Positions 22,998-43,403 of a stretch of DNA of 64,000 nucleotides are shown in pieces. The stretch is taken from assembly GCA_016788585.1 (NCBI GenBank), contig JAEURP010000009.1, forward strand, positions 186,001 through 250,000, in the 5' to 3' direction. The notes below the pieces were generated by a model. It saw only the letters and a program-made list of their open reading frames with translations, searched no databases and was not told the DNA's origin. Position 1 is the first letter of the stretch, and the number at the start of each line of letters is the position of its first letter. The translations under genes and the position numbers were made by a program. The stretch comes from Chthonomonas sp. (lineage in GTDB: Bacteria > Armatimonadota > Fimbriimonadia > Fimbriimonadales > Fimbriimonadaceae).

Positions 22998-23885
22998 ATG
23001 GTTATGAAACGACAACACGCGTTTACGCTTGTGGAGCTTTTGGCGGTGATTGCGATCATCGCTTTGCTCTCGGCAATTATCTTTCCCGTCTTTGCGCGGG
23101 CACGTGATAATGCGAACCGAGCTGGCGATATTTCATCCTTGAATGAACTACGCACTTCGTTGCAACTTTATCGGCAAGACTTTGGCGGCTACCCGCCATC
23201 ACTTCTTGGTTTTGTAGACCGCTATTCAACCGGTCCTCAAGCTGGTCAGGTAATTCCTGCCGATCTCATTACATCGGCCCTCTTTCCAAAGCGGGTTCGG
23301 AGCCTTGAGACGTTTCGCCCTCGGCCGGTGCGCGTCACGAAGACCGCGCTGACCACGGCCGTTTGGCCAGTTGCTGATAGTCGTGCATTAGGTCAAGCTC
23401 CCATCGTCGACACCAATGGCGATAACCAAGTGACTGCAGCAGACGATATTGCTGGGGCACGCCAAGCCTATTCCAACTCAGACACGGTAGCGATCAATCG
23501 TGGTGTACCAGTTGGCCCCGGCAATCCGGCGGCAGAGTTTTATCAGATCAGCGGTTACGACGTCGCTCAGAATCCGAAGAGCATTGGCAACCGAGCAAAC
23601 GAGTGGGAGTTGCGATACACACTCTTCTGGACGAATTACTCGATCGGTACGGGCGCTGGCTATGGAAGTGGAAGCGCCTTTGACGATCCGCGGCAACTAG
23701 GTTACAACGATCCGCCCGAAAGCACGGTCATCACATGGAACTCGTACTATCGCGATTGGGAGCCTGCTGGTGTAAACCGCATCCCGCAGCGAAGCAACCG
23801 CGACATCGTTTTGTTCCTTGGTGGCGCCGCCCGCCCATTTGATTCGCGCAAGGTGTGGGATTACGCCTGGCGCTCCATGCCCTGA
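22998..23885 (+). CDS. FimU/GspH-like prepilin with calcium-loop motif
   Basis: This 295-residue type IV pilin-like protein has a short basic leader and the methylation segment FTLVELLAVIAIIA, with glutamate at mature position 5; cleavage would be after alanine (HA/F) rather than glycine. The helix continues as FPVFARARDN, a common form in Armatimonadota. The globular part contains DTNGDNQVTAADD (about 138-150), which resembles an EF-hand/dockerin calcium loop. It is the first of four prepilin-like genes and occupies the FimU/GspH position of a minor-pilin operon. ATG 22998 is used; ATG 23004 is equally plausible. It could also be a major pilin, although the size and the calcium loop favour a minor one. 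Confidence 0.8.
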   Translation: MVMKRQHAFTLVELLAVIAIIALLSAIIFPVFARARDNANRAGDISSLNELRTSLQLYRQDFGGYPPSLLGFVDRYSTGPQAGQVIPADLITSALFPKRVRSLETFRPRPVRVTKTALTTAVWPVADSRALGQAPIVDTNGDNQVTAADDIAGARQAYSNSDTVAINRGVPVGPGNPAAEFYQISGYDVAQNPKSIGNRANEWELRYTLFWTNYSIGTGAGYGSGSAFDDPRQLGYNDPPESTVITWNSYYRDWEPAGVNRIPQRSNRDIVLFLGGAARPFDSRKVWDYAWRSMP

Positions 23886-23912
23886 GCACTTCGCTTTGGA
23901 GGCTAATTTACT

Positions 23913-25901
23913 TTGAACTGTCTTGTGTCTAATCATCGGAAGCGTGGAGCCTCGTTAATCGAGATCCTCGTGGTCATTGTGATCTTCGTGGTCGGGATTT
24001 TGGCTTCGGTCCAGGTCTTCCCGGGTGGCCTCGCCATTTTGCGGCAGAACCGCTCGAACACGGTCGCCAATGCCCTCGCCCGAGCCGAGCTCGAAAGGAT
24101 GAAGTCCCAAAAGGACCAATCATTCGACGCCCTCCTCGCCGTCAATTACCCCATCGTTTTGCCCGGCGTTCGCGAGATTGAGCTAGACATTCAGCGTCTG
24201 CCTACTGATATCAATCCTCCCGTTCAAGTCACCGACCTCGACAACACGGGTCTCCTTTCCGATGCCGACGGTGGGCTCGGAAACTGGTGGCTGTTCTCGG
24301 GCGCAAATGCAATGCGGCAGATCATCGGCGAAGGCCGCCGAATCCCCTCGGCTCGATTCGTCGATGGTCCGACTGGCACGCGCTTCGGTGGTGTCCTCGC
24401 GCTTCAATATGGCCCGCTGTTTCTAAATATCCAGTCGGCTAGCCCGGTGAATCCGGCCAACTTGGTTCCGTTTGTCGTTTATGGTAATGAACTGGTCCGT
24501 CGATTCACGGATGCCGATCTGTCCAGCGATTTTCCCCTTCGCGACGACTATGTGTCCTGGGTCGAAGACGATGGGGAGTTCTTCACGCTTCCGCAGGGTG
24601 CTTATCGCCCCGGTGCTCCTGTTGACCGGAATTACCGAGTTAGCGCAAGAGTTCAGTTTAGTGACGGCACGGTGCAGGACCTCGTGAGAGTGGTACCGGT
24701 ACCGGCTGCTGCGTCTGGTGCCCAAAGATACAACATCTCGCACGACTTCAAGGTTGTATTTAGTGGGGTTGGACCAGCTGTCACTCGTGTAGAGCCGGAC
24801 ACGGTTCAAATTGCGCGTCTGTTCGACGAAGTAGCGACCTTCTACACTGAAGCTCAGATTCAGGCTAACCCCGGCCTTCTCGACGATGCTGTCTATCAGT
24901 ATCAGCGGCTGGACGACCAACTCGGAATCTTCTTGTTCCACCCTCAGGGCTCGCAGTATCAAGAGCGGCGCGGTCGTGGGCGAATCCCGATGCGGGCATT
25001 CGTGGATTACAACGTGCTCGATTGGAGGATCATCCGCGACGATTTTCGAATCGGTACTTCCGCGCCTTACCACCAGAAGCTCCTTGTAGAGAGTCTCAAA
25101 GTTTCTGGTAATCGCGGCGCCGATGGCCTCAACTACTTGGGCCTCGGTTTCCCAGCGGCCAACGGAACAGTGACCCCAGCCCAACGAGACTTCGTATTGT
25201 TCGATCGTGATACAGGCGCAGTGATTCTCCCAAACAGCTACACCATCGACAAGTCTCTTGGACTCCTCCGGTTTGTTGACGTCGATAACAATGCAGCCAA
25301 TGGCCTTAGTGCTGATGTGGTCTACGCCGGGACAACTGCCGCGGCAAGGATCGACGATATTCGAAACCGCGCGGTTCGGGCGCTTTATCAGGCCAATGGC
25401 GAATACGCCGTTCAGCCGGTAAAGGCGTTTAACCGGTACCGAGCGACGTTCAGTTCGACCCTCGGCGTCGGTCAGTGTTACATCGGCGGTACCGACGCAG
25501 CGGCGCCTCTGTCGCTGGATCGGCGGATCTACTTCCCGCTCAGCGAGATTGGCAAGCAAGTCGTGGTGAGCGAAATCGTATACGAGGATGGCGCGGCGGT
25601 CCGAAAGAAGCTCACTGAGCAGGTCTTCCTCATCCGCGCACCTGGTCCCACCGATTGGAACCGATATGCCTTTATCGATATCCAAGATAAAGATCCCGCG
25701 GCCGTTCGATTTAACTACAGTTTGGGATACGCCGTTCGATCAGTGAGAGGCGCGAGTGTGGGTGTTCGGGTGCTTTGGAATCCGTCGTCCTTCTCCCTGA
25801 CTGGGGACTCGGCCACGAATATGACGAGAATGCGCCAATGGCTGGGCCAGATGCGGCGTGTGACTACTGAAACATTCCTTCTTAAGGGAGCGGAGAATTG
25901 A
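23913..25901 (+). CDS. Giant PilV-like minor pilin
   Basis: The 662-residue protein begins with the leader NHRKRG and then ASLIEILVVIVIFVVGILA, a type III signal with glutamate at position 5, followed by a PilV-type amphipathic helix with LARAELERM. A normal PilV is about 150-200 residues, so roughly 450 residues are added. These are strand-rich and include DLDNTGLLSDADGG (about 109-122) and SYTIDKSLGLLRF (about 442-454), the latter resembling a beta module seen in the last giant protein. A TTG start at 23913 is supported by GGAGG 10 bp upstream. It overlaps the next gene by TGATG. Predicted pilus tip component, inferred from order. Confidence 0.76.
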   Translation: MNCLVSNHRKRGASLIEILVVIVIFVVGILASVQVFPGGLAILRQNRSNTVANALARAELERMKSQKDQSFDALLAVNYPIVLPGVREIELDIQRLPTDINPPVQVTDLDNTGLLSDADGGLGNWWLFSGANAMRQIIGEGRRIPSARFVDGPTGTRFGGVLALQYGPLFLNIQSASPVNPANLVPFVVYGNELVRRFTDADLSSDFPLRDDYVSWVEDDGEFFTLPQGAYRPGAPVDRNYRVSARVQFSDGTVQDLVRVVPVPAAASGAQRYNISHDFKVVFSGVGPAVTRVEPDTVQIARLFDEVATFYTEAQIQANPGLLDDAVYQYQRLDDQLGIFLFHPQGSQYQERRGRGRIPMRAFVDYNVLDWRIIRDDFRIGTSAPYHQKLLVESLKVSGNRGADGLNYLGLGFPAANGTVTPAQRDFVLFDRDTGAVILPNSYTIDKSLGLLRFVDVDNNAANGLSADVVYAGTTAAARIDDIRNRAVRALYQANGEYAVQPVKAFNRYRATFSSTLGVGQCYIGGTDAAAPLSLDRRIYFPLSEIGKQVVVSEIVYEDGAAVRKKLTEQVFLIRAPGPTDWNRYAFIDIQDKDPAAVRFNYSLGYAVRSVRGASVGVRVLWNPSSFSLTGDSATNMTRMRQWLGQMRRVTTETFLLKGAEN

Positions 25902-28237
25902 TGCGAAGAAGGGCATTTACACTATTAGAACTCATCACCGTCATGGCGTTGACGGCGGTGCTCATGGGCCTTGTGGTGTATCCGCTCATTCAAAGCTTTG
26001 ACATCACTCGTGCTGGCCAAGGCTTTGCCGATGCTCAAAACCGAGCGCGTATTCTCATCGAGCGGATCACGCGTGAGGTTGGAAACGCTGCGTTTGTACG
26101 GGATAACACTGGCGACGCCGGATCGGTCTACATCGACGTACCCGCCTCAGCCGCGACCCCAAACAACTTTGTCCGAATTAGGCTAGAAAACTCGCGCCTG
26201 GACATCATGGCACCTGCCCAAGGAGACCCGACGCCATCAAGCCAGCCGGGCGGAGGCCTGATTAACCCAGATACCGGTCGCGTCGACCCCACACTGAAAA
26301 CTCCAAAGGGCGATGTTAACTTGCCAGTGACCGAGGGCTTGCGTCTCGTGCGCTACTTTGTCGGGCTACGCGAGCCAGTTCAGGGCACGCGGGCGAACCC
26401 GCTTCCCGCAAGATATTTTAATCCGTATGACGGCGTTCTGAATCGAAGGGCTGGCGGACAAGATAACCTCTACGTTCTTTGGCGGGCCGAGGTCGATATT
26501 CGCCAGTTCAACAATGCAACGAGTACTTGGCAGATTAATACAGAACTGTTCGATGTCGACGGTGACGGAACGGCCACACCGCGTGAATTGGAGCAGGCTC
26601 TCGACGACCCAAACTTCTTCAACTTCTCGATTCCATTAGCGGATATCAACAACCCCGCCAATGTTGCCCTAGCGCAACGGCAACGAGACTTCGACCGCAT
26701 CCGGGCTTGGATGAAGCGTTCGCGCATCGTTACCGAGTTTAGTCGATACGACATGATTCAGGTTTCGATCGACAAAGCTTCGCGGGCAATTCAGACCTTT
26801 GTCGATCCGATCGACGGCGTGACCAAGCCGAGAATCACCTCGTTGGTGGAATTCACTCCGACCCGAGTGAGCGGCGAGCCAATGGGCGGCTTGTTGGCAG
26901 TCCGAAGCGGTGAAGAGTCGGACAACTCAGCCAAGATTGGTCCCGATGTCTTTTCGGCTGACTTTGGCTTTGTCACTTCGCCAATCTTGCGCGTTCGGCC
27001 CAGTAGCTATCGAGATCTGGCGAACGCGATTGTTGCGCCGTGGACTCCTTACGAGTCTTGGATCAATGGGCGGCCCTATCTGGTGAGCCGAGATCGTCCA
27101 AATGGTGGGTTCAGTCAGTTCTACTTTGTCTCGGGAAATGACCTAACAGCCGGCACCGAGGTCTTCGATAATAGCGGTTACACGTTTGCCCGCGACTATG
27201 ATCGTGGTCAGCCCCTGCCTCCAGATCCTGACACTGGCGTCGCAACGACCGGGCTCTTCCGCTATCCTTACTCTTGGGCGATCGATAAGGCCGTTCAGAG
27301 AGCTGGCGGAACAAATTTGCTCAATACCGCTGCCATGCGTGAAGACTTTGTACCAACGGTGCTCGATCGCAAGCAAGGCAAGGTCATTGCGAGCTTTGGC
27401 ATTAATGAAGTTGGAACCGCGAACGCATTGCCGCCGGGTGTCGATGACAATCGACCGGTTGCCGATTGCGGGCAAGCTGTTCCGCCTGCGCAGGATGTTC
27501 TAGTCACGGGAGGCTCCCCTTCCAACCAGCGCTGGGCGGCGGTTGATTTCAATCCGGCGCTCGCTTCCAGTCACATCAATCAGCGCTTTAACGTGCTCTG
27601 GAATGACTGGCAGTTGCTCGCTCCTAACCTTGAGAAGTCGCAGCTCGTGCGTCGGTTCGTCGACTTGCGTGTAACCCCTCAAGTGGATGGTGCGGCGAGT
27701 CCGCTCGATCCTAGGCAGGGTTTTGCTAGGGCCAGAATGGTCCCTGGTAGCGAAATTGTGATCGGGCCAGACCAAACTCCAGGCACCAACTATGGGCAGC
27801 CTGTGCGATACACTCGCGTGCCCGTCGCCGGCAACGTTGGCCCTAATCAGTATTTCATCAATTACGTCAATCAGCGTGAGCCCGATTGGCAGCAACTCGG
27901 CTTTACGGTCGATCCTCAGATATTCAATCCGACCTACTACGATGATGCGGGCGGAAACTGGTCAAATCGGTTTGTGTCGCAAATTCTACAACCGCGGTAC
28001 CGGGCTGGATACATCGAGTTCAACTCGATGCCTGGCGAACCCCTGCCAAGCGGTCGGATTAGTGTTTTCTATCGTTTCCAATTCACCGAGACCAAGGATG
28101 TGTTTGAGTTGGATTACGACTCGCGACAATTGATGAACATCGCGCTGACGATTCGGAACTTCCCCCAAACCAGCGCGCCTAATCAGCAGAACGTCACCGT
28201 TCGCGGCCAAGCCAATGTGCGCAACCTTTTGAGATGA
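25901..28237 (+). CDS. Giant PilW-like minor pilin with EF-hand loop
   Basis: At 778 residues this prepilin-like protein is two to three times a usual PilW. MRRRA then FTLLELITVMALTAVLMGLV gives a leader, glutamate at position 5 and the hydrophobic helix, and FADAQNRARILIERITREV continues like PilW. Residues 218-229, DVDGDGTATPRE, form a textbook 12-position EF-hand calcium loop with Asp at 1, 3 and 5 and Glu at 12. The C-terminal part is strand-rich with aromatic residues (PNQYFINYVN, RISVFYRFQF). ATG 25901 shares its A with the previous stop. It probably assembles with its neighbours into a tip complex. Confidence 0.76.
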   Translation: MRRRAFTLLELITVMALTAVLMGLVVYPLIQSFDITRAGQGFADAQNRARILIERITREVGNAAFVRDNTGDAGSVYIDVPASAATPNNFVRIRLENSRLDIMAPAQGDPTPSSQPGGGLINPDTGRVDPTLKTPKGDVNLPVTEGLRLVRYFVGLREPVQGTRANPLPARYFNPYDGVLNRRAGGQDNLYVLWRAEVDIRQFNNATSTWQINTELFDVDGDGTATPRELEQALDDPNFFNFSIPLADINNPANVALAQRQRDFDRIRAWMKRSRIVTEFSRYDMIQVSIDKASRAIQTFVDPIDGVTKPRITSLVEFTPTRVSGEPMGGLLAVRSGEESDNSAKIGPDVFSADFGFVTSPILRVRPSSYRDLANAIVAPWTPYESWINGRPYLVSRDRPNGGFSQFYFVSGNDLTAGTEVFDNSGYTFARDYDRGQPLPPDPDTGVATTGLFRYPYSWAIDKAVQRAGGTNLLNTAAMREDFVPTVLDRKQGKVIASFGINEVGTANALPPGVDDNRPVADCGQAVPPAQDVLVTGGSPSNQRWAAVDFNPALASSHINQRFNVLWNDWQLLAPNLEKSQLVRRFVDLRVTPQVDGAASPLDPRQGFARARMVPGSEIVIGPDQTPGTNYGQPVRYTRVPVAGNVGPNQYFINYVNQREPDWQQLGFTVDPQIFNPTYYDDAGGNWSNRFVSQILQPRYRAGYIEFNSMPGEPLPSGRISVFYRFQFTETKDVFELDYDSRQLMNIALTIRNFPQTSAPNQQNVTVRGQANVRNLLR

Positions 28238-31200
28238 AAATGAGAACGAATCGGCAGTCGGGTCAGACCCTGATCATTGCGCTCCTAATCATGGGGGTTC
28301 TCCTCATCCTAGGTTTCGTCTTCGCCGGAATCGTCAGCCGCGGCATCTTCCAGACTTCCAGCGCCTTCAAGCGAACCCAAGCGACCGACCTTGCCGAGGC
28401 TGGCGCACGATTTGCCCACTACCAGCTCCAATATTCGGATCTGGCCGCCGACTGGCGCCCTTCCGCCACGATCATGGCGACGGATCCACAAGGCTTCACG
28501 CGAGACCCCGATGCATGGTATCTGCGACCAAGGCCAACATCGCCTTCATTTTTGCGCGACCGCTTAGGAAACACGATTCCTGACCTTGGAGGCCCTGATG
28601 GGTTGGGGCCGTTTAGCCGATTCGAGTTCGACAAAGGGCGTGCCCTTGTTCGCGTCCTCTACAATCCGACCCAGTTCGCCGGATTTAATGGGAATGCTTA
28701 CCTGCGCGAGCCAGCTAGGGCCCGAAGCCTCGTCCTCATTGAAAGCGTGGGCCGCCCAGGTAAGGTTGTGCCCAACGACCCCACGACTCTCACCAGCGAG
28801 GCAGTCAAAGTAAACAACTACGCCAGCCTAGCCGAGTTTGATGAGCAAATGGGCAAGCAGCGTTCGCAAGTGACGCGTAACGCGGAGACTCGAAAGCTCG
28901 TGGCATTTGCTTCGGTGACGAACATCGAGTACGGCTACTCGATCATGGACAAGTTTCATGTGAGTCGCCCCGCCGAAATCGGAGCGCCGACGGATAGTCT
29001 TAATCTTCTTTCAACCGCGACCGCCACAGATCCTCGCGGCGATCTGGGAATTACTTACGAAGGTAACCGAGTCATCGTGCCGTTTATCTTGGGTAGCCAA
29101 GTGGTTACTGCAACGGGTGCCAATCTCGTTCGCGGGACGGGCTCTCTCTTCTCCAATGCTGACTTGCTAGTCCATGGAGATGTGCGGGTGACGGTGGATC
29201 CACGGGCAGGTGACAAGTTCTTGACCGCCGGACGAATCACGCCGGCCAACAATGCTGCACGAATTGAAATTACTCGGACCGACAACTCGGGGACAACGGT
29301 TATCAACGTCGCCGGGCAAGGCATGTCCAGTACCAATCCAGGATTCAGCACTCATGGTGGGGTCTTCCGTGATGGGTCAAAGTCTGTTGACGCAACGGGC
29401 CAAGCGCGGTCGGTGAACCGCATCGAGCCGCCCAGCTTTGTGGCGAGCGATCCGGCATCGGGCGTTAATCGATACACAGAAATGACTCGCCAAAGTGGTC
29501 GCCAAATCGTTGGCGGAATGTTTGGAGGTCGCAACACTGGTCAATGGGGGCACGGAAACGGTCTATATATCGATAGCCCCGAACGAGGGAACTTCTCGAC
29601 AGAGACCGACCGCGAAACCGGTGATCCAGCCAAGGCGCTCACCCGCGATTGGCTTAACCCCAATAACCCAGATTCAGTTGCCTGGAAAGGCCCCTACTAC
29701 ATTCCTGTCGCCGCATATTGCGAGTTCTTGCCAGACGGTTTTCGAATCATCCGAGATGCGCGGAGCCGCTCGCGAGTATGGCGTCGGGAAGACGGCACAA
29801 CAACGGGCACCTCCGAAGTGCGCTATCGACTCCTTTACCCAGGACGCTTTGGACGCAAATACATCATCAACTCCATTTCACACCCCGACCTGATTGACCT
29901 GCCCTATAACACCATCCCGGTGGCTTCGGTGCAGAACCGGGGATGGGAATTCAATGGCGTCCTCCAGTTCGAGGGTGATGTCCGCGTTCGAGGCGTGATT
30001 CCCACTTTCGAGCAAATCACGCTGACCTCGCTAGGCACGATCTATATCGAAGGATCGATCACAAAGGGTGTCGTGAGTCCTGTCGATGGCTCGGTCCTGT
30101 CAGTGCCAAGCCCAGCTACGGTGATGCTGGCCGCGAAGGACTATGTTTGCGTGAATACCACCATGTTCACGGGTCCTGCTCCAGGCGAATCCGTAAGCCC
30201 GAAGAGAACCGATCGTTTGCCGAATACGCCCAATCCGATCGAACTCGACTTGAGCGAGCGACAGACCGTAACCCTGCAAACCCAGTTTCTGCGCGATCCA
30301 TTTATCACTGCGAGTGGCCTTCCAAATGCGAATCCCCAAACATGGGCGCCTTTTGCAACGGAGTACATCGAAGCGGGCGATAACCAGCCGATCACCTCAT
30401 CTTTGCTCTTGAGTCATAGCGCTGACAATAGTGGCCCCAGCTTCATCAGTCTCTCAAGCACACCATTTGGTTACATGGGTTCGACCGGAGATCCCGTTGG
30501 GCAGAAGTATATCTTTGGTCGCGATGTTACGCGTGACTTCAATGTAGAGGCAGGTGCCTTGTTCACTGCGGCGAATCTCGTCAGTATCTATGGACTGACC
30601 AATACTACTCAAACCGCATTTCCAAGGTTCGAGACAGCAGCACTTCCGCTGATCGACAATGCGTTTACGGTGACCTCGCTACGACTGACCGGTCAAACTC
30701 CTGGCTTTGGAGGCGCGCAGGTCTACGCGATCGACGACGAGACTCGGTTCACGATCACCCCTGAGTTTCCAAGCGCTTATCAAGCCCAGAACTATGTCCT
30801 CGCTCGAGCGGCAATGCAGCCCAGCGATATCAGAGTCCAGGCGGCGATCTATGCGGAGGAGGGCTCGTTCTTCGTGATTCCAGGTCCTGCGTTTAACCTT
30901 AATCCGGACGATACACGCGCTCGCTTCCTCGGCACAATTGCCACCAATGCGGCCAATGGCATCGCCGATGCGATCGGTCAAGCGCAACTACAACGCTATC
31001 GAGACTTTGGCAGCCGCCCCGAGGCCCCGTTCTTTGGTGAGCCGCTCAATTGCCGCGTTTCGATTCTTGGATCGATCAGCGAGAATATGCCCGTTCCCAT
31101 GAGCGAACGTGCCGAGTGGTTGAAGAAGTGGGGATGGATGCCTCGATACGTCGGTGGTTCCGGTGATCCCAATAGCTCGAATCTCAATGATCTACAAACG

Positions 31201-31440
31201 TTGCCTCGGCAGCACGTGCCAGTCGGCTGGCCGCTGGATTTGACAACCGGCGCCCCAAGTGCGACCGATGCGAGGTTTGTACCGAATTTCAACTTGACCT
31301 ATGATCCGGTTTTTGCTGTGGGCTCGGCCGATGGCGTCAATCCGCTGAGACGAAGCGATGATGGCCTTTGGATATTGCCGCCCATGCCCCGACTGCCGGT
31401 TAGCCCAACACTTGCCTACTTTGGCGAGGTGAACCCATGA
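28234..31440 (+). CDS. Giant PilX/GspK-like minor pilin
   Basis: The 1068-residue product starts with NRQSG then QTLIIALLIMGVLLILGFVF, a prepilin-type leader and helix that lacks glutamate at position 5, as expected of PilX/GspK, the tip pilin. ATDLAEAGARFAHYQ matches the PilX/GspK helix with its AEAG phrase. The remaining thousand residues are mainly beta-rich and unlike any family I recognise, whereas normal PilX is about 170-200 and GspK about 330. It overlaps the neighbouring genes on both sides (ATGA at the start, TGA overlapping the next ATG). The usual role is to cap a pseudopilus and contact PilY1, so a partnership with the next gene is likely. Confidence 0.74.
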   Translation: MKMRTNRQSGQTLIIALLIMGVLLILGFVFAGIVSRGIFQTSSAFKRTQATDLAEAGARFAHYQLQYSDLAADWRPSATIMATDPQGFTRDPDAWYLRPRPTSPSFLRDRLGNTIPDLGGPDGLGPFSRFEFDKGRALVRVLYNPTQFAGFNGNAYLREPARARSLVLIESVGRPGKVVPNDPTTLTSEAVKVNNYASLAEFDEQMGKQRSQVTRNAETRKLVAFASVTNIEYGYSIMDKFHVSRPAEIGAPTDSLNLLSTATATDPRGDLGITYEGNRVIVPFILGSQVVTATGANLVRGTGSLFSNADLLVHGDVRVTVDPRAGDKFLTAGRITPANNAARIEITRTDNSGTTVINVAGQGMSSTNPGFSTHGGVFRDGSKSVDATGQARSVNRIEPPSFVASDPASGVNRYTEMTRQSGRQIVGGMFGGRNTGQWGHGNGLYIDSPERGNFSTETDRETGDPAKALTRDWLNPNNPDSVAWKGPYYIPVAAYCEFLPDGFRIIRDARSRSRVWRREDGTTTGTSEVRYRLLYPGRFGRKYIINSISHPDLIDLPYNTIPVASVQNRGWEFNGVLQFEGDVRVRGVIPTFEQITLTSLGTIYIEGSITKGVVSPVDGSVLSVPSPATVMLAAKDYVCVNTTMFTGPAPGESVSPKRTDRLPNTPNPIELDLSERQTVTLQTQFLRDPFITASGLPNANPQTWAPFATEYIEAGDNQPITSSLLLSHSADNSGPSFISLSSTPFGYMGSTGDPVGQKYIFGRDVTRDFNVEAGALFTAANLVSIYGLTNTTQTAFPRFETAALPLIDNAFTVTSLRLTGQTPGFGGAQVYAIDDETRFTITPEFPSAYQAQNYVLARAAMQPSDIRVQAAIYAEEGSFFVIPGPAFNLNPDDTRARFLGTIATNAANGIADAIGQAQLQRYRDFGSRPEAPFFGEPLNCRVSILGSISENMPVPMSERAEWLKKWGWMPRYVGGSGDPNSSNLNDLQTLPRQHVPVGWPLDLTTGAPSATDARFVPNFNLTYDPVFAVGSADGVNPLRRSDDGLWILPPMPRLPVSPTLAYFGEVNP

Positions 31441-34400: not shown

Positions 34401-36308
34401 ACAGGCAACATGTTCGTATCCGGCGATACCCTGTACTTCGGTGGTGGTAGCTTCCTGCCAGGGTTCCTTGAAAATGGCTTCGGTACCTTGCCAACCAAGA
34501 CCGGATTCCTTTATGCTGTCGACCTCCGCATTGGCGCAAATGACCTGCGGGAGCCTTCGATCCGCCATGCTTGGCAGGTGGGTCCGCTCCGTGGTTGGGA
34601 ACGCTATATCAGCTTAATCGACCCAGACCCAAGTGGCAATGGCGTTACGCCTAGCCCGTACGTGATTTGGCCGAGTAACAATGGCATTCGTTCGTTTGAC
34701 GACTTCCGAGTTCGCGTTCGACAGGCTGTTCTAGGAAGTCCATCGGCTCCGTCTCCATTATCGGGAATCATTGGTGGCAATGACGCGTTATTGGCTTGGA
34801 ACAACAACGAGACATTTGCATTCTCAAGGTCCGACCTACTCGTGACTGATGAATCGCGAATCATTCGCATCGATCCCAGTGGCGCACCCCTTTGGTCTGT
34901 GGATGCTACGTTAAAGGGTGGTCAAGATGGTGAAATTGGCAGTAGCCAGACCTCGGTGAACTTGTCGCGGCCAACTCGCGCCTACTCGGTTGGCGGTAAC
35001 TCCTATCTGATTGCGGATCCTGGCAACAACCGTATTGTCAAGATCGATGGATCGGGCCGCGAACTCCGTACCTTGACAAAGTTCAATCTGGACCCAATCT
35101 ACCTGCCGGAAGGAGTGCCCGCGAACGCGCCTACGAAGTTGGCAGGGCCCAGAGATGTCTTGACCTTTACAACATTCCAAAGCGATATTCAGATTAACCA
35201 AATGGTTAGTAACGGAGAGCTTAGCCCAGCACTCGCACGTCGTCTCAATGGCACGGCCGAGTATTGGGTTCACTATGTCATCGCCGATACAGGTAACCAG
35301 CGAGTAATTGAGTTGATCGACCGCTATGAATACAGTTCAACTCGCGGCGTTATAGGGCCCGTTGCTCGAATCGACGACCCCAGTTCTGATGCGCCGATCA
35401 CCACGGTGGCAGGGATTCCGCGGCGGCTAGTTCCAGCTCTGGGCATGTTGAAGTGGCAGATCAAGAGCGAGCTAACACGAAAGCAATACTCGTACAACAG
35501 TATCGATCGAATCTGGCTGAACGACTCACACGGCAGTCACCCGATCTTTGCGTTCGGATTTGGAAATGTCGAGCCGGCTCAATCCAGCTTTGGCCTCCCG
35601 GATACGGGGCGAACCGACAATCAGGTAGGCGCCGGAGGCGTGGTCCTCTATGATCCTGATCACGACGACACAGCGGTAATCACCTCGTTTAACGTCCCGC
35701 CGATCTCGAGTTCAGTTTTCTGGAATGATACAACGGCAAATTGGGGCATCAACGATGTGCAAAACACCTACGTTGGTGGTGGAATGCGAAAGATCAGCGG
35801 ATTGAGATCGGCAACGCTTGGTTACGTCAATGGCGTTCTAAGCGTGATGATCAGCGACAGCAATGGCGTTTACGAGCTCACTGATAATGCCGGCACTTGG
35901 GATGCACGATGGGCAATGCCTCGCGAAGCCTATGTGGTTATGCGCCGCGGTCGACTTAATCCATCCAACCCCAATCCAGTCGTGCCCACAACGAAGAACC
36001 CAATGGGATTCATTCCAACATTCGCTCGGCGATTGAATTCGGGCGAAATCCTGGTCGTGAACGGTTATGTTGGCAAGCACCGCGTAGCCAGCCTTCCCCA
36101 CGTGTCCTCGTTTGGTATCAGCCCGGGCGACCCGTTTGGCGGCGAGGTCGTCGTGCTCGACGGCGCGATCGACCCCAATCCGGCCAACCGCGGATTTGGC
36201 TGGAACAAACCCAATCTAGGGTTTGACTCTTACTATGTGAACTTCGAATTACCACCGGTTGCGGGGACACGTTCGCTCGAAGGGCCGGTGTTTGCAGAAA
36301 AGCGATAG
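31437..36308 (+). CDS. Giant secreted PilY1-like beta-propeller protein
   Basis: A 1623-residue exported protein with a signal peptide cleaved near residue 21 (AVSA). Residues 120-165 (DALLLVVSGTVSLNS and the following QGGLLWVDVAAGG) look like a DUF4159-type Rossmann-like domain. Residues about 360-560 look like PQQ-type propeller blades, with DGRLYVLDARASDD leading into DLDGDSNPD (384-392), matching the D-x-D-x-D-x-x-x-D calcium site known from PilY1. Further on, YLIADPGNNRIVKIDG (about 1191) and VIADTGNQRVIEL (about 1282) are NHL-type blades. Its position directly after PilX- and PilW-like genes is that of PilY1, the pilus-tip adhesin. It would be anchored by the pilins or be surface-exposed. 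Only the propeller fold and order support the PilY1 analogy. Confidence 0.7.
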   Translation: MTTKSALLLVTAALAANAVSAPVTFSGRRLPVNVGVLVIESQTTGGEPTNLAPHVWGQLEKDRAIKPAAWSFTNPRANSSLTDFMQTRWVNRGVANVPSSGSRMTKDDGPYWEVDLDDASDTQLANYDALLLVVSGTVSLNSKEREKLRKFIDQGGLLWVDVAAGGSPAFDVTNPLPIPMLFNFSATSLLIDPTHQLVSYPNAITPSELGSLFSAGTGVIQVPNAAPGNDSQGWVLVDGLKLDPVVGPDPTAMTLGLAKIGDGYMMATTRFVSGALNQGRNGAGAIVANTGFRSFPPVQSNVFSSAAKLVINALSLRASSSTGLANGRHTNSLSVDISAPLLKRFETAQISPAADTSPVLYKNRIVMLGRDGRLYVLDARASDDLDGDSNPDDGYTDAAGSPIDIIWRSAPLVGGGRGSTPTCTELVRSVDTADGSDAILVHVAEAGQPSTVYQFPFRGSGDNFPESNRYTSDSNTTLTPASGFTVPQKAPASPTVHEGIAYVADITEANNALGRVWAIDLMDQVEMQTASRQWQIQLAPRMAAVDGAPTVGYIPIQDNSGGADKVVYVPTQPDAARSAGFVSIWAGVRGEAPVSVQRIGNTLQITTRASLQNLPIYASGGTGQQSLDLKLTVLDTATGRPFSGANMNNMFAGSPLANSGQNGTIRIDLGGFGQGLDFTGPNPTAALRIDYTLDWGRAGSGPGLAAADNYIRGDAQLPDDSGNGRRVLGTVALGSTGNIFVVTAPSDVTRPGGSLFALKERGRGDFNMLYRWEAFDQMNLLASASTGLTRIPYDGCVVDHDGLLNFPGIGAFLNRPMTIQRFATGPVVRGNRVYAALNSGKQFPFPTGSERFNTSVIAFEADPRPLEMLVEGLGQSFALVQPDPGRSIRPAVGPFEPNVLSVLQPIQFQTDTVNGFSRVTLNSVASVSRGRFRDALICNLPVIARRGGSPDMVIQPDAGVGDGLLVPGNADGRWNPQKWQIVINGMETTGNMFVSGDTLYFGGGSFLPGFLENGFGTLPTKTGFLYAVDLRIGANDLREPSIRHAWQVGPLRGWERYISLIDPDPSGNGVTPSPYVIWPSNNGIRSFDDFRVRVRQAVLGSPSAPSPLSGIIGGNDALLAWNNNETFAFSRSDLLVTDESRIIRIDPSGAPLWSVDATLKGGQDGEIGSSQTSVNLSRPTRAYSVGGNSYLIADPGNNRIVKIDGSGRELRTLTKFNLDPIYLPEGVPANAPTKLAGPRDVLTFTTFQSDIQINQMVSNGELSPALARRLNGTAEYWVHYVIADTGNQRVIELIDRYEYSSTRGVIGPVARIDDPSSDAPITTVAGIPRRLVPALGMLKWQIKSELTRKQYSYNSIDRIWLNDSHGSHPIFAFGFGNVEPAQSSFGLPDTGRTDNQVGAGGVVLYDPDHDDTAVITSFNVPPISSSVFWNDTTANWGINDVQNTYVGGGMRKISGLRSATLGYVNGVLSVMISDSNGVYELTDNAGTWDARWAMPREAYVVMRRGRLNPSNPNPVVPTTKNPMGFIPTFARRLNSGEILVVNGYVGKHRVASLPHVSSFGISPGDPFGGEVVVLDGAIDPNPANRGFGWNKPNLGFDSYYVNFELPPVAGTRSLEGPVFAEKR

Positions 36309-36320
36309 GTAGCGCTATCG
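36303..36320 (+). other. Hairpin across the stop codon between the giant genes
   Basis: CGATAG at 36303-36308, which includes the TAG stop of the first giant gene, pairs with CTATCG at 36315-36320. The downstream sequence GAATGATTTTGAG is only weakly T-rich. It may moderate translation or transcription between the two giant proteins, or be chance. Confidence 0.25.
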
Positions 36321-36341
36321 AATGATTTTGAGATTCAAAAG

Positions 36342-39300
36342 ATGAATACGTGGCGATCAGTTTTTAGTGGCTTCCTAGCCTTGGCTCTGATTCAGGGGGC
36401 GATGGCACAGCAATGGGGCGGCTTCCAAGGAGGTCAGGCGAGACTAGGGCAACACGATGCCAATAAGCGCACCTTCAATCCAGGACGACCGTTCCTGCGT
36501 TGGTGGGACCCGCTCTACAGCTTGACCACGGTCATTGATAATTTTGAGCCTGGGGCTTCTTACACGCCAATCGCGGCATGGGACCAGCCTACCGGTGATC
36601 GCGCTGGCTTCGCTCACCAAGAGGATCTCACTTCATTCCCGCCTCCAGCCGAGTATCGGTACGCTACGCCGGTCAATGCAATCTCCGTCGATGAACCTTG
36701 GACACCCGCAAGTGGCGTTGCTCCAGCGTTTCAATGGCAGTTCACGGGATTGGCAGCAGGCGAACAGTATGGCGTGAGCGTCAACATTCCAATTGGACCA
36801 ACCGACGTCGACCCCACTGCCGCGACGGACTACCGCTTTCAGGCTCGATACTTCGTTTACGAAATTACGGGTGTCGACAACCCGACCAACCCTGGGCAGC
36901 CCATCTACCAGGTCGTAGACAATCTCCAATATGCGGGGGGATGGGTGCGCCTCGGCAACAATGGGGCGACCACGAATCAGGTCTACACCGTCTCGGCTGG
37001 GAACACGATCACCGTACGGCTTCTCGCGACCGTGCCTCGACTCGCTGATGGCTCGTGGGCCGACAATGCGTCAAACGTGCTGGTTTACGCCGACGCAGCT
37101 CGAATTGAAGGCGTCACGAGTACTGCAGGCACCGTGACCACCCAGGCCGTTGTTGGTCAAAACAACGCTGGCCCATTCCCGTGGCGAACCGTGTCCGTTC
37201 GATCGGAAGACACGACGGTCCAAGACGGTTCGGTACTCAAGAGCTTTGGCTTCCCGCTCGTCACCAGCTACGCTTTCGATGGCTCGCTCGTCAATGTGAC
37301 GGATACTACTGGTCGACGAAACATGATCTGGTCATGGCCTGTTCAGCGACCGTTCAACGCGACCGATACCGAGTTGCAACGCTACTATTCCGAGAAGGCC
37401 GACTGGGCCCTGGGAACGGGTCTTTTTGCCGCCGACCCTAATCGTACAGATCACAGCATCTTAGTGGATAACACGAATGCAAACGTGCGGGTGGGCATTG
37501 CTTGGACCCCCGATACGGTAGCCCCTGTTTTCAAGGGCACCGACTACTTGGTTAAGGTCGCCGAAGTTGCCTCGACGAGCCAAGTTCAATATGAACCCAA
37601 ACTCACGGCGGGTCGATACACGATCGACGTGTTCATTCCGCAAGCCTCGGGCCTCGCCACGGCCGCAACTTACGAAGTGCGTCGCGGTGCAACGCTCATC
37701 GCTACCGATACGATTGACCAGAACGCTAATGCAGGCCGATGGGTGCGGATTCAAGTTGGACAAACCTCGGCATGGGATAGCGACGACTTATCGCCTCTTT
37801 CGCTGAGCGTCACCGGTACGAGCAATCCAGCCAATGGCGACGTCATGGCGGATCAAGTCCGCTTTACGAAGACTGCCGACCTGACCGTACGCTCGACTCC
37901 GATTTACACGCGCGCGTTCGTTCGAGTGGGCGCAACCACCGCGGAGCGAGATGTTGTCATCGTCACGATGGACAATGGCCGCATTTACTGTTTGGATGCT
38001 AGGGGCTTGGAGAGCGCGGGTACGCCAACAGGTCGCACCCAAGTTTATTGGGTCTACCCAAGTGAGGGGAGCGCCGACCCGAATTGGGTTGCCGGCGAAG
38101 ATGGACCGGACGGCATGGCTGAAATGCCGACGGCATTCAATGCATCCAGCGCAACGATGGCGCGGGTGAACACAGGAACCGGAACTGAAGATCTTCTGTA
38201 TATTGGTTCTCAGAACGGTCGGGTTTATTGCATCAACATGGAGGGCCGTGGGGACGGCACGACAACTCGGCGCTGGAGCTACCCCAACGACTATCCGTCA
38301 GCTTCAGTCGAGAGCGCACTTGGACCCATTCAAGGCTCTGTTGCGTTTGCTGACACAACCGCCGGACCGACCGTTTTTGTGCCAACAGTTCAAGGGCGAC
38401 TCTATGCCCTCGATGCCGTAGGCGATCCCATCAATAAAACAACAAATTCGCGCTGGACCTATCCGGATATTGCTGGCGGCCCTATTGGGTCCATCACGAT
38501 GGCGCCAGTCATCGGATGGAGAACGGGTAACCCCACTGATCGTGTGGTCTACTTTGGTACCAACGATGCATCACTTTTTGGTGGTGGGAACACCATGTTT
38601 GCGGTTAACGCGGTGGACGCGGGTGCCGATGGTATTGGTGATCTCCTTTGGTCTCGCGACTTTGCCGCAAATCCATTCGGAAACTTCCTCAACATTAGCC
38701 CAGCTTTTGCAGATCAATCGGACGTGAACCCGAACTGGCCGGGTGCGCCGTTGAACCCTTATGGCGCAACCATGCCCAACACCCTTTTTATTGGTAACAC
38801 CAACCAAGAAGTGGCTGCACTGGATGCAGACAATGGAAATGTCATCTGGGTCGACGATGTTGGCGCTTCGCCATCGGCCCCTCTCAGCTTCTCGCACGCC
38901 CGACTTCCGGATGTTGCTAGCGGTGCAACTATGGCGACGCCAGAGCCGATGGTCGTCGTGCCAACTACGGACGGACGCTATGTTTCGCTCGGAGCTCCTG
39001 CGGGCCGGCTCGACTTTACCGGTAGCCGAACGATTTGGACGATAACCGGTCAACGTAACGGCAATGTGCCCGCGATGTCCTTTGGCGGTACTAATGCGCC
39101 CTTCCACAATTACATGTATGGGGCTGATGCCGCCGGATATCTATACGCATGGAGTTGGGATCCAACGCTGCCAGATGATGGGCAAGCCATTACTCCTGGG
39201 CAACCACCAATTGGACCAACTGATGTCACGACGGACCAAACCTCAATCAACCTTGGCGATATTGTTCGGAACGCTCGCGTCGATTTCATTCTTCCACAGG

Positions 39301-42300
39301 ACTTCTCGAATTTGCAGGCCAGGGCTTCGGCGGGAACTCTAACACAGGCGGACCTCGCCGCGGCGATCAATAAGGTCACGAGAAGGCATTTTGAGTTTGG
39401 CGAGACTGCATATCTGCTGGTCCATAACTTGCCGGACCCGGCTTCCTTTGCGCCGCCATTCCCGTATACCGTCGACTTGTTCTTCAATGCGCCGGGGCAG
39501 AGTTCACAACGCGTCGCCTTTGGACTTACTCCAGTTGGTGGAGCCGCAACACCGGCCAATAACCGGTGCGTTTTGGCCAGCTTCTCGTTCATCGGAATTG
39601 GTCAGAACGCATTGGTACCGGGGAACTCCACGATTACCGTCCGTGCTCTTTCCGTAAATCGCCAAAATGCGAACCGGACAATTCCAGCTACGAGCTTCCG
39701 CCCAAGCAATACGGTCTCGCTAGCCAACCCGCTGGCCGTCCGATTAACTGGCGTCACACAGACGCCGCAGACGCAAGTAGGAACGGCCCTGTCGCCCGCT
39801 GATGCCGACAATATCGTCAACGGAACTCCGGCCTCGAAGCTTACGACAATGGTTCAGCGATTCCGTCCAGAGCTTTCGGGCAATGCCGATCTCTTGTCCC
39901 ACGGAACAACCGGTCTGACGCGTCTCGATGTCTTTGACCGAAGTCTTATGTCGTTGCTCTTTGGCGGTCAACGCGGCCTGTCGGGAGTTCGGATGGAGCT
40001 CAATAACATGAACTTCCTCGGCAACCCGATCAAGCCATTGGATCCCCTCGTTTACGCGGGGCTAGAAGACTTGCCTGGTAGCCCAGGAACTAATGTGAGC
40101 TTGGACTACCCAGACATTCGGCGCGACCGGATGCAAGTGACCAAGGAGCAATATGGGCAGGTAGAGAACCCGCTTTTCCAAGGCGTGTCGCTCATTCCTC
40201 CGGCTTACACTCAAGCTGATCTCAACACCTACCGGTCGGACGAGAACCAATACAACCAGTTCCTGAATAGGACACTTGAAAGCACCGCGTTTGACTTCGA
40301 AGTCAGCGTGCCGCGATTCCAACCTCCAACCACGGATCAGTATCGAGGGGCCCAGTTCGTCTATGTAGATGCTGGAGCACCGGGGCGACAACTCAACGGG
40401 ACGCAAGCCGTCGAACCGTATCGCCAATTCGGATTGAGTACAGCGATTTCGATTGACGAGCGACCCGTCTTGGGTACCCCCACGGTCGATCTAGGATCGA
40501 TTCCAGGTGGTGGTGGTTACTTACCGTCGTCACCTTGGAATACTGCTGGGTACAACATGCTCGATGGTCGAATTCACAATTCGACGCGCTACCCATTCTT
40601 CCAGCGATTCTCGTTGTTCAACGAAGGCAATGTGAACTTGCTCAACGTCCGAATGGCGAAGCAGATTCAGACCACCGGCACAGACGTGGTGCCTCTCCGG
40701 GCGCCATCGCTGAACTTCCGAGCTCAACTGGATGGTCGATTACACCTCCATTCAGATGTGGATCCCTTCTTTGCCGGAATTACGCTCTCCGGACGCCCAA
40801 GCATGGGTGACCGGGTGATTCTGCAAAAGGCGCGCCCGGATGACGGGGAGCCGACTCGGCTCAGTGTTAATCCAAAGCGCCGCGCAAATGCGAATCTTGA
40901 GGTCGTAGATGGCTATCTGCTGGGGATTCCTGACTTTGCGAATGTCAACGACTACGAAGAGTCCATCAAGGATCCGAAAGTTGCTGTCTCCGTGCCGATC
41001 GGTACGCCAGTCGGCCGCTATCAGAATGGCATCTACCTCTTCGAGGATTCCTTGGTTGCTGGGCCAAGCCCCGCCTATCCGACGCTAAACTACGTGGTCG
41101 TCAATGGTCTCGATGTTTACGAGCCTTTCACAGACTCGCCAATGAACCTATTGTTCTTGGTCCGTGAATCCAGGTTGACGACAAGCACAGTAGGCAAGGC
41201 GGCTCCGATGGCGGACAATATTCCGGTCGGCCCGAACTTCCAATATGCCAATCAGGGACCGGCGGTCACCAGGGTCGGCAATGGAACGATGGTTGTTGCC
41301 ATCACTTCGGACAGATTGCATAATGGTGCCCCCAGCATCGTTCCTGGCATGCGGCCTGAAACCGAAGCCGGCAACTTGCCGCAATGGCGGATTTACTTCT
41401 TCACGCTAACGGGCGGCGGAACCACGCCGGTTGCCAATTGGAGCCCGATGGGCGATCTGGACTTTTGGAACCCCAATACGTCTACTGGCAATCCGGCAAC
41501 CGATAAGTGGTTCAACCCCGGTGCTGGTTCGTTCCCGATTACGCCAACCGAAGTGATCTTCAACTTCCCGTTTGCCGAATTGGTGCCAAACAGCGCCCAA
41601 TTCAGTAACCCGAGCTTCCCGGCGTTTGGCTTCTTCGAGCCAACCTCAGGATGGGGCGCGAACGGCAATGCTGAGCGTCGAACCATGTACATGGCGTTCA
41701 CGGGTGAAGTGATGCGTCAGGTCGCTGGCGGCGAGCGTCGACGAGAGACGCGGCTTCTGCTTAGCAACCTAGCCGTAGGCAGTGGTGGTTCGGTAACGGC
41801 ATCACCGCCTGTACCTTTGAATTTCAGCACGGAAGTGCCCGACATTCAGGCCAAACTTGGTAAGCCGAGTCTGGTGCAAAGTGGCAACACGGCAACGGTG
41901 TTCTATCCGATTACGGCTAGCGGATCGACCCAGATATTCTTCAGTACCTATAACGGAACCCAGTGGGTGGCCTCGGGAGCATCGCGTCGTGGTGGAACAG
42001 GCCCCGTCAATCGCCTGCGAACGGGCGATGGATTCGAGTCGGTAAACAACCCTTCGGTCGTGCTACGTTCAAACAACTCTCCAGCGATTAACTCGGGAAC
42101 GGTCATCGAGGCGGTCTTCACTGGTCGTCTCCGCGGTCGCTCCCAACCGGAGGTCTACATGGCTCGGATTCCGTCCAATGGTGCGGCTCCAAGGAGTGCG
42201 GACCCATCGCCGTTCACTCGCGGTGGCGGCGCCCTATTTGATCAATTGGTTTACGATCCAGGCGCCCAGATCTTCTGGTCGGCTGGCGCGGATCTGATGC

Positions 42301-43202
42301 CAGACTTCAATGGCGCAAACTCGATCGACCTTCAGCAATTGGTTATCGCCGGAAACGTACAGTCGTATCAGAGCATTCTGGTGCCGGGTTCGCGAAAGCA
42401 GGCCGATGGCTCATCGGTGGTCAGCTATGACACCACGCTCGGTGGCAGGGCATATATCGACCTTGCCAACGGCTCAGTGCGCCTCTCGGGTGCAATTGTG
42501 CCAAGAACAAACCGCCTGTTCCTGCGCTACATGCCGCGAATCCTTCGGGTCAGCGCAAACAGCGATGTGAACCACCGGTCAGCCAATATCACCTTTGACA
42601 ACCGATCGAGCCAGGATTACAACTACTGGTTCAATTCGGGCGGAACGGCGATCACCAATGGGAATGTGTTCCCGAATCGCTGGGTCGTCACGTACGGCAA
42701 GACTGCAGCGCGGGACAGCCAGAACAGTCGACCCTACATGATGACAATGCGCGTTGGAGTGCGTTTACCGAGGGCCGTTCAGCTCAATGCAAATGGGTCC
42801 ATTACAAACTTGTCTGTCGTGTTCACGGATGGTTTCACTGCGCCGTATCAGGTCGATCCGGCGGCGGGAGTGATTTACTTCCCACCGGGAGCCGAAGGAA
42901 GGCGTGTAAACGTCACATACAACGCGATTGACCGAGATGGTACGCCGATGGGTGCCAACACGGCAAACGGACTTCCTGTCGACCTTGTGGAAGAAATGTC
43001 CGAGACGGTTGTGCCCATCGAGCAGGTCTCAAACGAGTCTGCGGTGACAATGGCACTCGACATGTTGGGTTCAAACTCCTTCAGCCCGAATGGAAGGCCG
43101 GGCCTCATATGGATGTTCTGGTCAAGCACACGGTCGGGTGGCTCCGATGTGTTCTTCCAGACCATTGCGCCGAAGTTCACTCCTCAGGCGAACGGACAGT
43201 AA
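36342..43202 (+). CDS. 2286-residue secreted adhesin-like protein
   Basis: The largest product of the window, secreted through a signal peptide cleaved near ALIQGAMAQ. Two golvesin/CBM-like segments stand at about 60-255 and 390-505; each has a W-V-R strand (GGWVRLGNN; GRWVRIQVGQ) and an ADxxR strand (VYADAARIEG; MADQVRFTK). A PQQ-like propeller follows (about 520-945) with blades such as NGRIYCLDARG, NGRVYCINMEG and GRLYALDA, and a DAGADGIGD loop at 759-767 resembling PilY1's calcium site. The C-terminal half is beta-rich and ends with YQVDPAAGVIYF near 2170 and GGSDVFFQTI. It is the last gene of the cassette and is followed by a terminator. A role as adhesin or sugar-binding tip protein is inferred. 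Confidence 0.74.
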   Translation: MNTWRSVFSGFLALALIQGAMAQQWGGFQGGQARLGQHDANKRTFNPGRPFLRWWDPLYSLTTVIDNFEPGASYTPIAAWDQPTGDRAGFAHQEDLTSFPPPAEYRYATPVNAISVDEPWTPASGVAPAFQWQFTGLAAGEQYGVSVNIPIGPTDVDPTAATDYRFQARYFVYEITGVDNPTNPGQPIYQVVDNLQYAGGWVRLGNNGATTNQVYTVSAGNTITVRLLATVPRLADGSWADNASNVLVYADAARIEGVTSTAGTVTTQAVVGQNNAGPFPWRTVSVRSEDTTVQDGSVLKSFGFPLVTSYAFDGSLVNVTDTTGRRNMIWSWPVQRPFNATDTELQRYYSEKADWALGTGLFAADPNRTDHSILVDNTNANVRVGIAWTPDTVAPVFKGTDYLVKVAEVASTSQVQYEPKLTAGRYTIDVFIPQASGLATAATYEVRRGATLIATDTIDQNANAGRWVRIQVGQTSAWDSDDLSPLSLSVTGTSNPANGDVMADQVRFTKTADLTVRSTPIYTRAFVRVGATTAERDVVIVTMDNGRIYCLDARGLESAGTPTGRTQVYWVYPSEGSADPNWVAGEDGPDGMAEMPTAFNASSATMARVNTGTGTEDLLYIGSQNGRVYCINMEGRGDGTTTRRWSYPNDYPSASVESALGPIQGSVAFADTTAGPTVFVPTVQGRLYALDAVGDPINKTTNSRWTYPDIAGGPIGSITMAPVIGWRTGNPTDRVVYFGTNDASLFGGGNTMFAVNAVDAGADGIGDLLWSRDFAANPFGNFLNISPAFADQSDVNPNWPGAPLNPYGATMPNTLFIGNTNQEVAALDADNGNVIWVDDVGASPSAPLSFSHARLPDVASGATMATPEPMVVVPTTDGRYVSLGAPAGRLDFTGSRTIWTITGQRNGNVPAMSFGGTNAPFHNYMYGADAAGYLYAWSWDPTLPDDGQAITPGQPPIGPTDVTTDQTSINLGDIVRNARVDFILPQDFSNLQARASAGTLTQADLAAAINKVTRRHFEFGETAYLLVHNLPDPASFAPPFPYTVDLFFNAPGQSSQRVAFGLTPVGGAATPANNRCVLASFSFIGIGQNALVPGNSTITVRALSVNRQNANRTIPATSFRPSNTVSLANPLAVRLTGVTQTPQTQVGTALSPADADNIVNGTPASKLTTMVQRFRPELSGNADLLSHGTTGLTRLDVFDRSLMSLLFGGQRGLSGVRMELNNMNFLGNPIKPLDPLVYAGLEDLPGSPGTNVSLDYPDIRRDRMQVTKEQYGQVENPLFQGVSLIPPAYTQADLNTYRSDENQYNQFLNRTLESTAFDFEVSVPRFQPPTTDQYRGAQFVYVDAGAPGRQLNGTQAVEPYRQFGLSTAISIDERPVLGTPTVDLGSIPGGGGYLPSSPWNTAGYNMLDGRIHNSTRYPFFQRFSLFNEGNVNLLNVRMAKQIQTTGTDVVPLRAPSLNFRAQLDGRLHLHSDVDPFFAGITLSGRPSMGDRVILQKARPDDGEPTRLSVNPKRRANANLEVVDGYLLGIPDFANVNDYEESIKDPKVAVSVPIGTPVGRYQNGIYLFEDSLVAGPSPAYPTLNYVVVNGLDVYEPFTDSPMNLLFLVRESRLTTSTVGKAAPMADNIPVGPNFQYANQGPAVTRVGNGTMVVAITSDRLHNGAPSIVPGMRPETEAGNLPQWRIYFFTLTGGGTTPVANWSPMGDLDFWNPNTSTGNPATDKWFNPGAGSFPITPTEVIFNFPFAELVPNSAQFSNPSFPAFGFFEPTSGWGANGNAERRTMYMAFTGEVMRQVAGGERRRETRLLLSNLAVGSGGSVTASPPVPLNFSTEVPDIQAKLGKPSLVQSGNTATVFYPITASGSTQIFFSTYNGTQWVASGASRRGGTGPVNRLRTGDGFESVNNPSVVLRSNNSPAINSGTVIEAVFTGRLRGRSQPEVYMARIPSNGAAPRSADPSPFTRGGGALFDQLVYDPGAQIFWSAGADLMPDFNGANSIDLQQLVIAGNVQSYQSILVPGSRKQADGSSVVSYDTTLGGRAYIDLANGSVRLSGAIVPRTNRLFLRYMPRILRVSANSDVNHRSANITFDNRSSQDYNYWFNSGGTAITNGNVFPNRWVVTYGKTAARDSQNSRPYMMTMRVGVRLPRAVQLNANGSITNLSVVFTDGFTAPYQVDPAAGVIYFPPGAEGRRVNVTYNAIDRDGTPMGANTANGLPVDLVEEMSETVVPIEQVSNESAVTMALDMLGSNSFSPNGRPGLIWMFWSSTRSGGSDVFFQTIAPKFTPQANGQ

Positions 43203-43221: not shown

Positions 43222-43258
43222 TTGGGCCCGGAGGTTTCCTCTGGGCCAAGTGTTTTTG
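43222..43258 (+). terminator. Strong terminator after the giant-protein cassette
   Basis: A 13-bp stem with one bulged G (43222-43235 pairing with 43239-43251, one G-U pair), a TTT loop and a TGTTTTTG tail fulfils the rules of a rho-independent terminator. It separates the pilin/giant cassette from pilMNOPQ, so the two halves of the locus are independent transcripts. Confidence 0.8.
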
Positions 43259-43356: not shown

Positions 43357-43386
43357 TTGACGTGGCTCGTTAGGCGGTGCTAAGAT
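43357..43386 (+). promoter_or_regulatory. Candidate sigma70-type promoter of pilM
   Basis: TTGACG at 43357-43362 and TAAGAT at 43381-43386 are 18 bp apart, with the ATG of pilM at 43404. The location directly downstream of a terminator supports a new transcript start near 43393. Confidence 0.5.
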
Positions 43387-43403
43387 TCAGCGCGGACGCA
43401 CGA

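Follow-up and report, generated by a model that had tools for sequence, protein, structure and literature searches.

The minor-pilin cluster of Myxococcus xanthus consists of FimU-PilV-PilW-PilX-PilY1 (PMC7541494). Minor pilins form a tip complex that is capped by a subunit without Glu5 (reviewed in PMC10191384). PilX and PilY1 are joined by strand pairing, and calcium motif 1 of PilY1 has the form Dx(D/N)xDGxxD (PMC13190605). Large pilins are also known. ComZ of Thermus thermophilus, a pilin of 554 residues into which a beta-solenoid is inserted, binds DNA and has been argued to be located at the tip; its gene adjoins those of three pilins of 156–233 residues, PilA1–PilA3 (PMC6561018). Modular pilins reach 860 residues, and PilB and PilC of Streptococcus sanguinis carry large functional domains on a pilin that is presumably at the tip; the example studied in most detail has a single domain attached behind the pilin module (PMC8179133).

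The locus described here is found in a 64,000-nt stretch of Chthonomonas sp. DNA (the window; GCA_016788585.1, contig JAEURP010000009.1, positions 186,001–250,000), which is part of a 2.38 Mb genome from the Fimbriimonadaceae of the phylum Armatimonadota. Six genes are found in a row on one strand and are termed U, V, W and X (prepilins 1–4) and Y1 and Y2 (secreted giants 1 and 2). A first-pass annotation had described them as a giant version of the minor-pilin/PilY1 operon; on re-check all six reading frames are intact, with places, order and sizes as it gave them (Table 1). The predicted mass of the summed precursors, one copy of each, is ~726 kDa. The six genes are flanked by genes of the pilus machine in the order pilT-pilC-pilD-[six genes]-pilM-N-O-P-pilQ. 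The features of a type IVa pilus (T4aP) locus, pilT, pilC, pilD, pilM and a secretin gene, are present together as determined by Pfam. The genes in the pilN, pilO and pilP positions are without a Pfam match. The locus in the window has no gene for the extension ATPase PilB; T2SSE ATPases of PilB size are encoded elsewhere in the genome, and one adjoins pilT in several relatives. Downstream of pilQ are aroK, aroB and a PASTA kinase gene. The STN domain of the secretin is encoded by its own gene ahead of a short pilQ, and this two-gene layout is common to many relatives.

Table 1. Features of the six-gene set and the adjoining type IV pilus genes (positions in the window)
Feature	Position	Strand	Length and evidence
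pilT, retraction ATPase, first gene of the pilus locus	19361–20596	+	411 aa; PF00437 T2SSE, E = 2e-51; PilT-type by eye
pilC, platform protein	20601–21827	+	408 aa; PF00482 T2SSF, E = 1.9e-69
pilD, prepilin peptidase	21914–22933	+	339 aa; PF06750 and PF01478
U, prepilin 1, FimU/GspG-like	22998–23885	+	295 aa; N_methyl
V, giant prepilin 2, PilV/GspI-like N-terminus	23913–25901	+	662 aa; N_methyl
W, giant prepilin 3, PilW/GspJ-like	25898–28237	+	778/779 aa; N_methyl
X, giant prepilin 4 without Glu5, ComZ/GspK/PilX-like putative tip pilin	28234–31440	+	1068 aa; AlphaFold2 model
Y1, Sec-secreted giant 1	31437–36308	+	1623 aa; DUF4159-like N-domain, BamB-like propeller, NHL-type propeller
Y2, Sec-secreted giant 2	36342–43202	+	2286 aa; Golvesin_C, PQQ/BamB-like propeller
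Rho-independent terminator-like hairpin, 3' end of the six-gene set	43225–43247	+	stem of 10 base pairs (8 G-C), then a T run
pilM	43377–44792	+	PF11104, E = 7.9e-49; alternative ATG at 43404
pilN position	44803–45753	+	place between pilM and pilQ; conservation in relatives
pilO position	45750–46586	+	place between pilM and pilQ; conservation in relatives
pilP position	46583–47266	+	place between pilM and pilQ; conservation in relatives
STN-domain protein	47324–47992	+	PF07660, E = 2e-7
PilQ secretin, short	48032–49630	+	532 aa; PF00263, E = 4e-35

The junctions agree with the earlier description of coupling by overlap. V and W overlap by 1–4 nt, the extent depending on the start of W (a TTG giving 779 aa or the ATG at 25901 giving 778 aa), and the W/X and X/Y1 overlaps are each ATGA. 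The intergenic gaps are 64 nt between pilD and U, 27 nt between U and V and 33 nt between Y1 and Y2. The strong terminator said to close the set is present as a hairpin followed by a T run, and a promoter-like site is found 5' of pilM. On the basis of the overlaps, the short gaps, the hairpin after Y2 and the promoter-like site, pilT to Y2 may be a single transcript. The same genome also has a second pilM-N-O-P-secretin cluster at ~316–321 kb of the contig, without minor pilin or giant-protein genes. Thus the machine used by the six-gene set is not certain, and its link to the adjoining pilM-pilQ genes is one of position. There are 24 N_methyl prepilin sites in the genome, mostly in genes of ~250–350 aa outside the six-gene locus.

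Like the M. xanthus cluster, the set has a row of four minor pilin genes in matching order, then a gene for a large secreted propeller protein, and is associated with a T4aP machine. The minor-pilin operon logic and the FimU-PilV-PilW-PilX order proposed at first pass are supported. The set differs from that cluster in that V, W and X exceed classical minor pilins in size by a factor of two to several, that there are two secreted proteins and not one, neither of them in the PilY1 family PF05567, and that the set is within pilTCD-pilMNOPQ. What the set shares with ComZ and PilA1–PilA3 is a large pilin of the tip type that lacks Glu5 and has a domain within the pilin fold, with three pilin genes alongside. 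However, X is about twice as long as ComZ and has an extra jelly-roll, its sequence similarity to ComZ is undetectable, and Y1 and Y2 are additional. As in the streptococcal modular pilins, large domains are carried on a pilin, but X exceeds the extreme of the modular pilin survey, and here three giants are fixed together throughout a phylum. A motif-based pilin survey would miss X, since it has no N_methyl match.

A Verru_Chthon cassette consists of four genes, one of which encodes a very large protein; model A of this family (TIGR02600, of TIGR02596–TIGR02600) has 1296 positions. W has a weak N-terminal match to cassette proteins D and C. X has no useful match: TIGR02600 does not match the window X and reaches E = 0.043 in one of 38 X orthologs. 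A genome search with TIGR02600 gave matches in 0 of 31 genomes, the control genomes being likewise silent. The Verru_Chthon definition is not known to include secreted propeller proteins.

Four prepilin signatures had been reported at first pass. For three of them this is borne out by N_methyl matches above the Pfam cut-off in U (E = 6e-8), V and W; X has no such match, although its N-terminus is prepilin-like. Glu5 is kept in U, V and W and absent in X wherever the N-terminus could be located in 21 genomes. The assignment of U as FimU/GspH has to be changed, as GspG is the better N-terminal profile (E = 1.3e-8 at residues 8–69, against E = 0.002 for GspH, both below the cut-off). V resembles PilV (TIGR02523, E = 2.9e-6 at residues 11–70), scoring 27.8 bits where the cut-off is 52.2. 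The N-terminal profiles proposed as a check point to PilV and GspG at levels below the model cut-offs.

The N-terminus of X reads GQTL[IV][IV]A or near variants in the window and its relatives, and in one relative (G067) it is KGTALIIAL, likewise without Glu5. No Pfam model matches X, nor its orthologs at a useful level; a profile of X has no match among PDB sequences, and PHROGs has nothing for X or Y1. The AlphaFold2 model of X has a pLDDT of 85.7 and a pTM of 0.87 and displays an alpha1 helix of 57 residues (positions 11–67). Foldseek alone finds no PDB match with E < 1e-3. When the 1000 chains ranked highest by Foldseek were re-examined with VIA-align, the top match was ComZ (6qvi_A), with a Z score of 12.0 and an rmsd of 4.1 over 259 aligned residues that span positions 144–1055. 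The next matches are jelly-rolls of the CBM36/CBM35 type at residues 646–864, with Z scores ≤ 8.5. The jelly-roll is a common fold, and a match at Z ~8 tells no carbohydrate specificity. The missing Glu5 together with the ComZ/GspK-like fold makes X resemble a tip subunit, and in the model it looks like a ComZ/GspK-type cap that has been enlarged further. With the loose rmsd and no sequence similarity, the homology of X and ComZ is short of proof. The last residues of X are extremely conserved, with 78% identity. A role of this tail as a docking strand for Y1, comparable to the pairing of PilX with PilY1, was considered and found weak, as a similar tail is kept in reduced genomes that have no Y1.

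By eye, a Sec-type signal sequence is recognised at the N-terminus of both Y1 and Y2. The DUF4159-like N-domain of Y1 is found in 34 of 36 orthologs. It is followed by a BamB-like propeller, the model of which (pLDDT 86.9) matches propellers of the BamB/YxaL type with Z scores of 15–19.5, Rv3035, YxaL and BamB among them at 16–19.5, and then by an NHL-type propeller. The structure 3HX6 of the seven-bladed PilY1 propeller is not among the best 50 structural matches listed for the Y1 model. The first blade of the propeller has a calcium-type loop at residues 384–394, where the window sequence at positions 384–392 is DLDGDSNPD, with S in place of G; a DxDxDGxxD loop is present in most of the 36 orthologs. 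Loops of the D-x-D-x-D-G-x-x-D type are common, so that this one is a parallel to PilY1 and not proof. Y2 has a Golvesin_C domain (PF25275, E = 5.7e-14) and a PQQ_2 propeller (PF13360, E = 7e-8), the profile of which also matches BamB and designed PQQ propellers. The ~1300 C-terminal residues of Y2 show no family match. There is no match to PF05567 in the window Y1 or Y2, in the region of residues 28–1125 of 36 Y1 orthologs or in 13 Y2 orthologs. A genome search with PF05567 gave matches in 0 of 61 genomes with the control genomes likewise silent, and the absence of PilY1 therefore rests on the direct protein scans. Judged by the family model, neither Y1 nor Y2 is PilY1. The placing of two beta-propeller proteins in the PilY1 position is borne out as to the propellers; the calcium loop of Y1 is a further parallel, and an identity of the two proteins with PilY1 is not supported.

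The set is conserved throughout the Armatimonadota. By protein search, 262 of 291 Armatimonadota genomes have X (among the good genomes, 186 of 194) and 221 of 291 have Y1; a profile of X is positive in 19 of 24 genomes that were picked chiefly because their match was weak or missing. According to profiles built from 40 kb of each of 20 genomes, all 21 genomes, the window's own included, have U-V-W-X-Y1-Y2 in the same order and on a single strand. All six genes are found in 55 of 80 named loci, and the other 25 have part of the same order, mostly at a sequence end. The 80 loci and the 20 genomes partly overlap, and the counts are not independent. Scattered genes in relatives had been named beforehand as grounds for rejection; no differing order is seen among the 80 loci and the 21 genomes, and an arrangement kept in this way across a phylum is not due to chance. 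One locus (L161) continues for 1.2 kb beyond X without a called Y1, and another (L186) is without a called Y2. In the 21 genomes V is 606–764, W 625–803, X 865–1109, Y1 1507–1764 and Y2 2122–3590 aa in length. The term "giant version" is correct as to size but needs qualifying: such lengths are the rule throughout the phylum, and large tip pilins and modular pilins were known before. The genes pilT, pilC, pilD, pilM and pilQ are neighbours of the set in most of the 20 genomes. In three relatives (G145, G163 and G175) the set is away from pilTCD or pilMNOPQ, and the six genes thus travel as a unit.

The 80 loci were kept from a pattern-based scan of 84,980 species, and nearly all have Armatimonadota names or no taxon. 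The closest named relatives of X are from Fimbriimonadaceae bacteria SJ46 and SJ800. A record titled Methanoregulaceae archaeon SJ84 (L139) has the Armatimonadota set and is probably a mislabelled bin. One metagenome-assembled genome, Chthonomonas sp. UBA2387, has two copies of X, each in a full set (L112 and L137), which represent either a second cassette or contamination. Two reduced relatives of 1.5 Mb (G132 and G133) have short forms of U-V-W-X (V 262–318, W 492–538 and X 599–685 aa) with neither Y1 nor Y2 alongside, and PilM is absent or weak. These represent a natural minimal version, and the propeller proteins are accordingly not always needed.

The products of the six genes are probably an enlarged, phylum-specific version of the complex that primes a type IVa pilus and forms its tip. 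The gene order and its conservation throughout the phylum, the signal types, the missing Glu5, the predicted folds and the neighbouring pilus machine are the observations that point to this. From these we infer that the products would assemble in order into one complex at the tip, with a role in adhesion or polymer binding. PilD would cut the four prepilins; X, without Glu5, would form the cap, and V, W and U would pack below it and prime polymerisation of the major pilin. Y1 and Y2, exported by Sec, would join the tip in the periplasm and take the place that PilY1 has elsewhere. They would exit through PilQ with the growing pilus, which PilT would pull back. Outside the cell, the enlarged parts, which are the ComZ-like body of X, its CBM-like jelly-roll and the propellers of Y1 and Y2, may bind a polymer or surface. 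By analogy, the CBM-like part and the propellers suggest a polysaccharide or surface as the ligand, and ComZ suggests DNA. Fimbriimonas ginsengisoli, a member of the same group, is fimbriate and non-motile, and its pili have been proposed for attachment (PMC4072686). Counted against a tip complex are the long but loose match to ComZ, the empty search of X against PDB sequences and the lack of a match to the PilY1 model; passage of a ~726 kDa tip through the secretin may also be hard.

The match to ComZ also raises a reading in terms of DNA uptake, where a competence pilus would carry X at its tip as a giant ComZ-like DNA receptor, and Y1 and Y2 would help in capture. It has in its favour that ComZ, the top PDB match of X, binds DNA and has been argued to be a tip pilin, that pilA1-pilA2-pilA3 adjoin comZ in parallel to U-V-W-X, and that a retraction ATPase gene is within the locus. 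However, a shared fold is no demonstration of DNA binding, the predicted pI of X (6.1) and of Y1 (5.4) is acidic, the CBM-like jelly-roll of X points to sugars, and the pili of F. ginsengisoli have been proposed for attachment; DNA uptake is considered unlikely. A lower probability is given to Y1 and Y2 being unrelated surface proteins that share the operon, with a tip formed by U-V-W-X only. This would agree with the two reduced genomes and with the absence of a PF05567 match, but not with the order that is fixed throughout the phylum, the overlap of X and Y1 in the window, or the calcium loop and propeller by which Y1 parallels PilY1.

The least probable of the readings is that the set would build a giant tip for a pseudopilus of type II secretion, with Y1 and Y2 as secreted substrates and not as parts of the filament. 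The best profile of U is GspG, Y1 and Y2 have Sec-type signals, and on phylogenetic grounds type II secretion has been assigned to Armatimonadetes (PMC6668835). Such systems are recognised by the lack of a PilT-type ATPase and by a fused GspL in place of PilM and PilN, whereas this locus has pilT and a separate PilM; an X/Y1 overlap and a single six-gene order would also be unusual for substrates. The enlarged T4aP priming and tip complex is thus preferred. A stronger form of it is less than evenly probable, namely a separate class of T4aP tip in the Armatimonadota of ~0.7 MDa, among the largest known, with a ComZ-like giant pilin that has a sugar-binding jelly-roll and with two non-PilY1 propeller proteins that replace PilY1, serving as a phylum-wide polysaccharide or DNA receptor.

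Operons of the minor-pilin/PilY1 type are already known, as are modular pilins and ComZ as a large tip pilin. What is new is the scale, the fixed set throughout a phylum, the putative cap that resembles ComZ and bears a jelly-roll, and a pair of propeller proteins that do not belong to the PilY1 family; no published description of the six-gene set was found in the literature outside subscription journals. None of the family models searched recognises the giant putative cap pilin X. The set provides an independent case for the question of whether PilY1 itself, or any propeller on a cap without Glu5, is needed for T4aP assembly, and also a case for how a tip of ~726 kDa gets through a secretin. 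The fimbriate, non-motile F. ginsengisoli is likely a cultured host. Pilus tips determine what a pilus binds, and an order-fixed set this large throughout the phylum suggests a core function.
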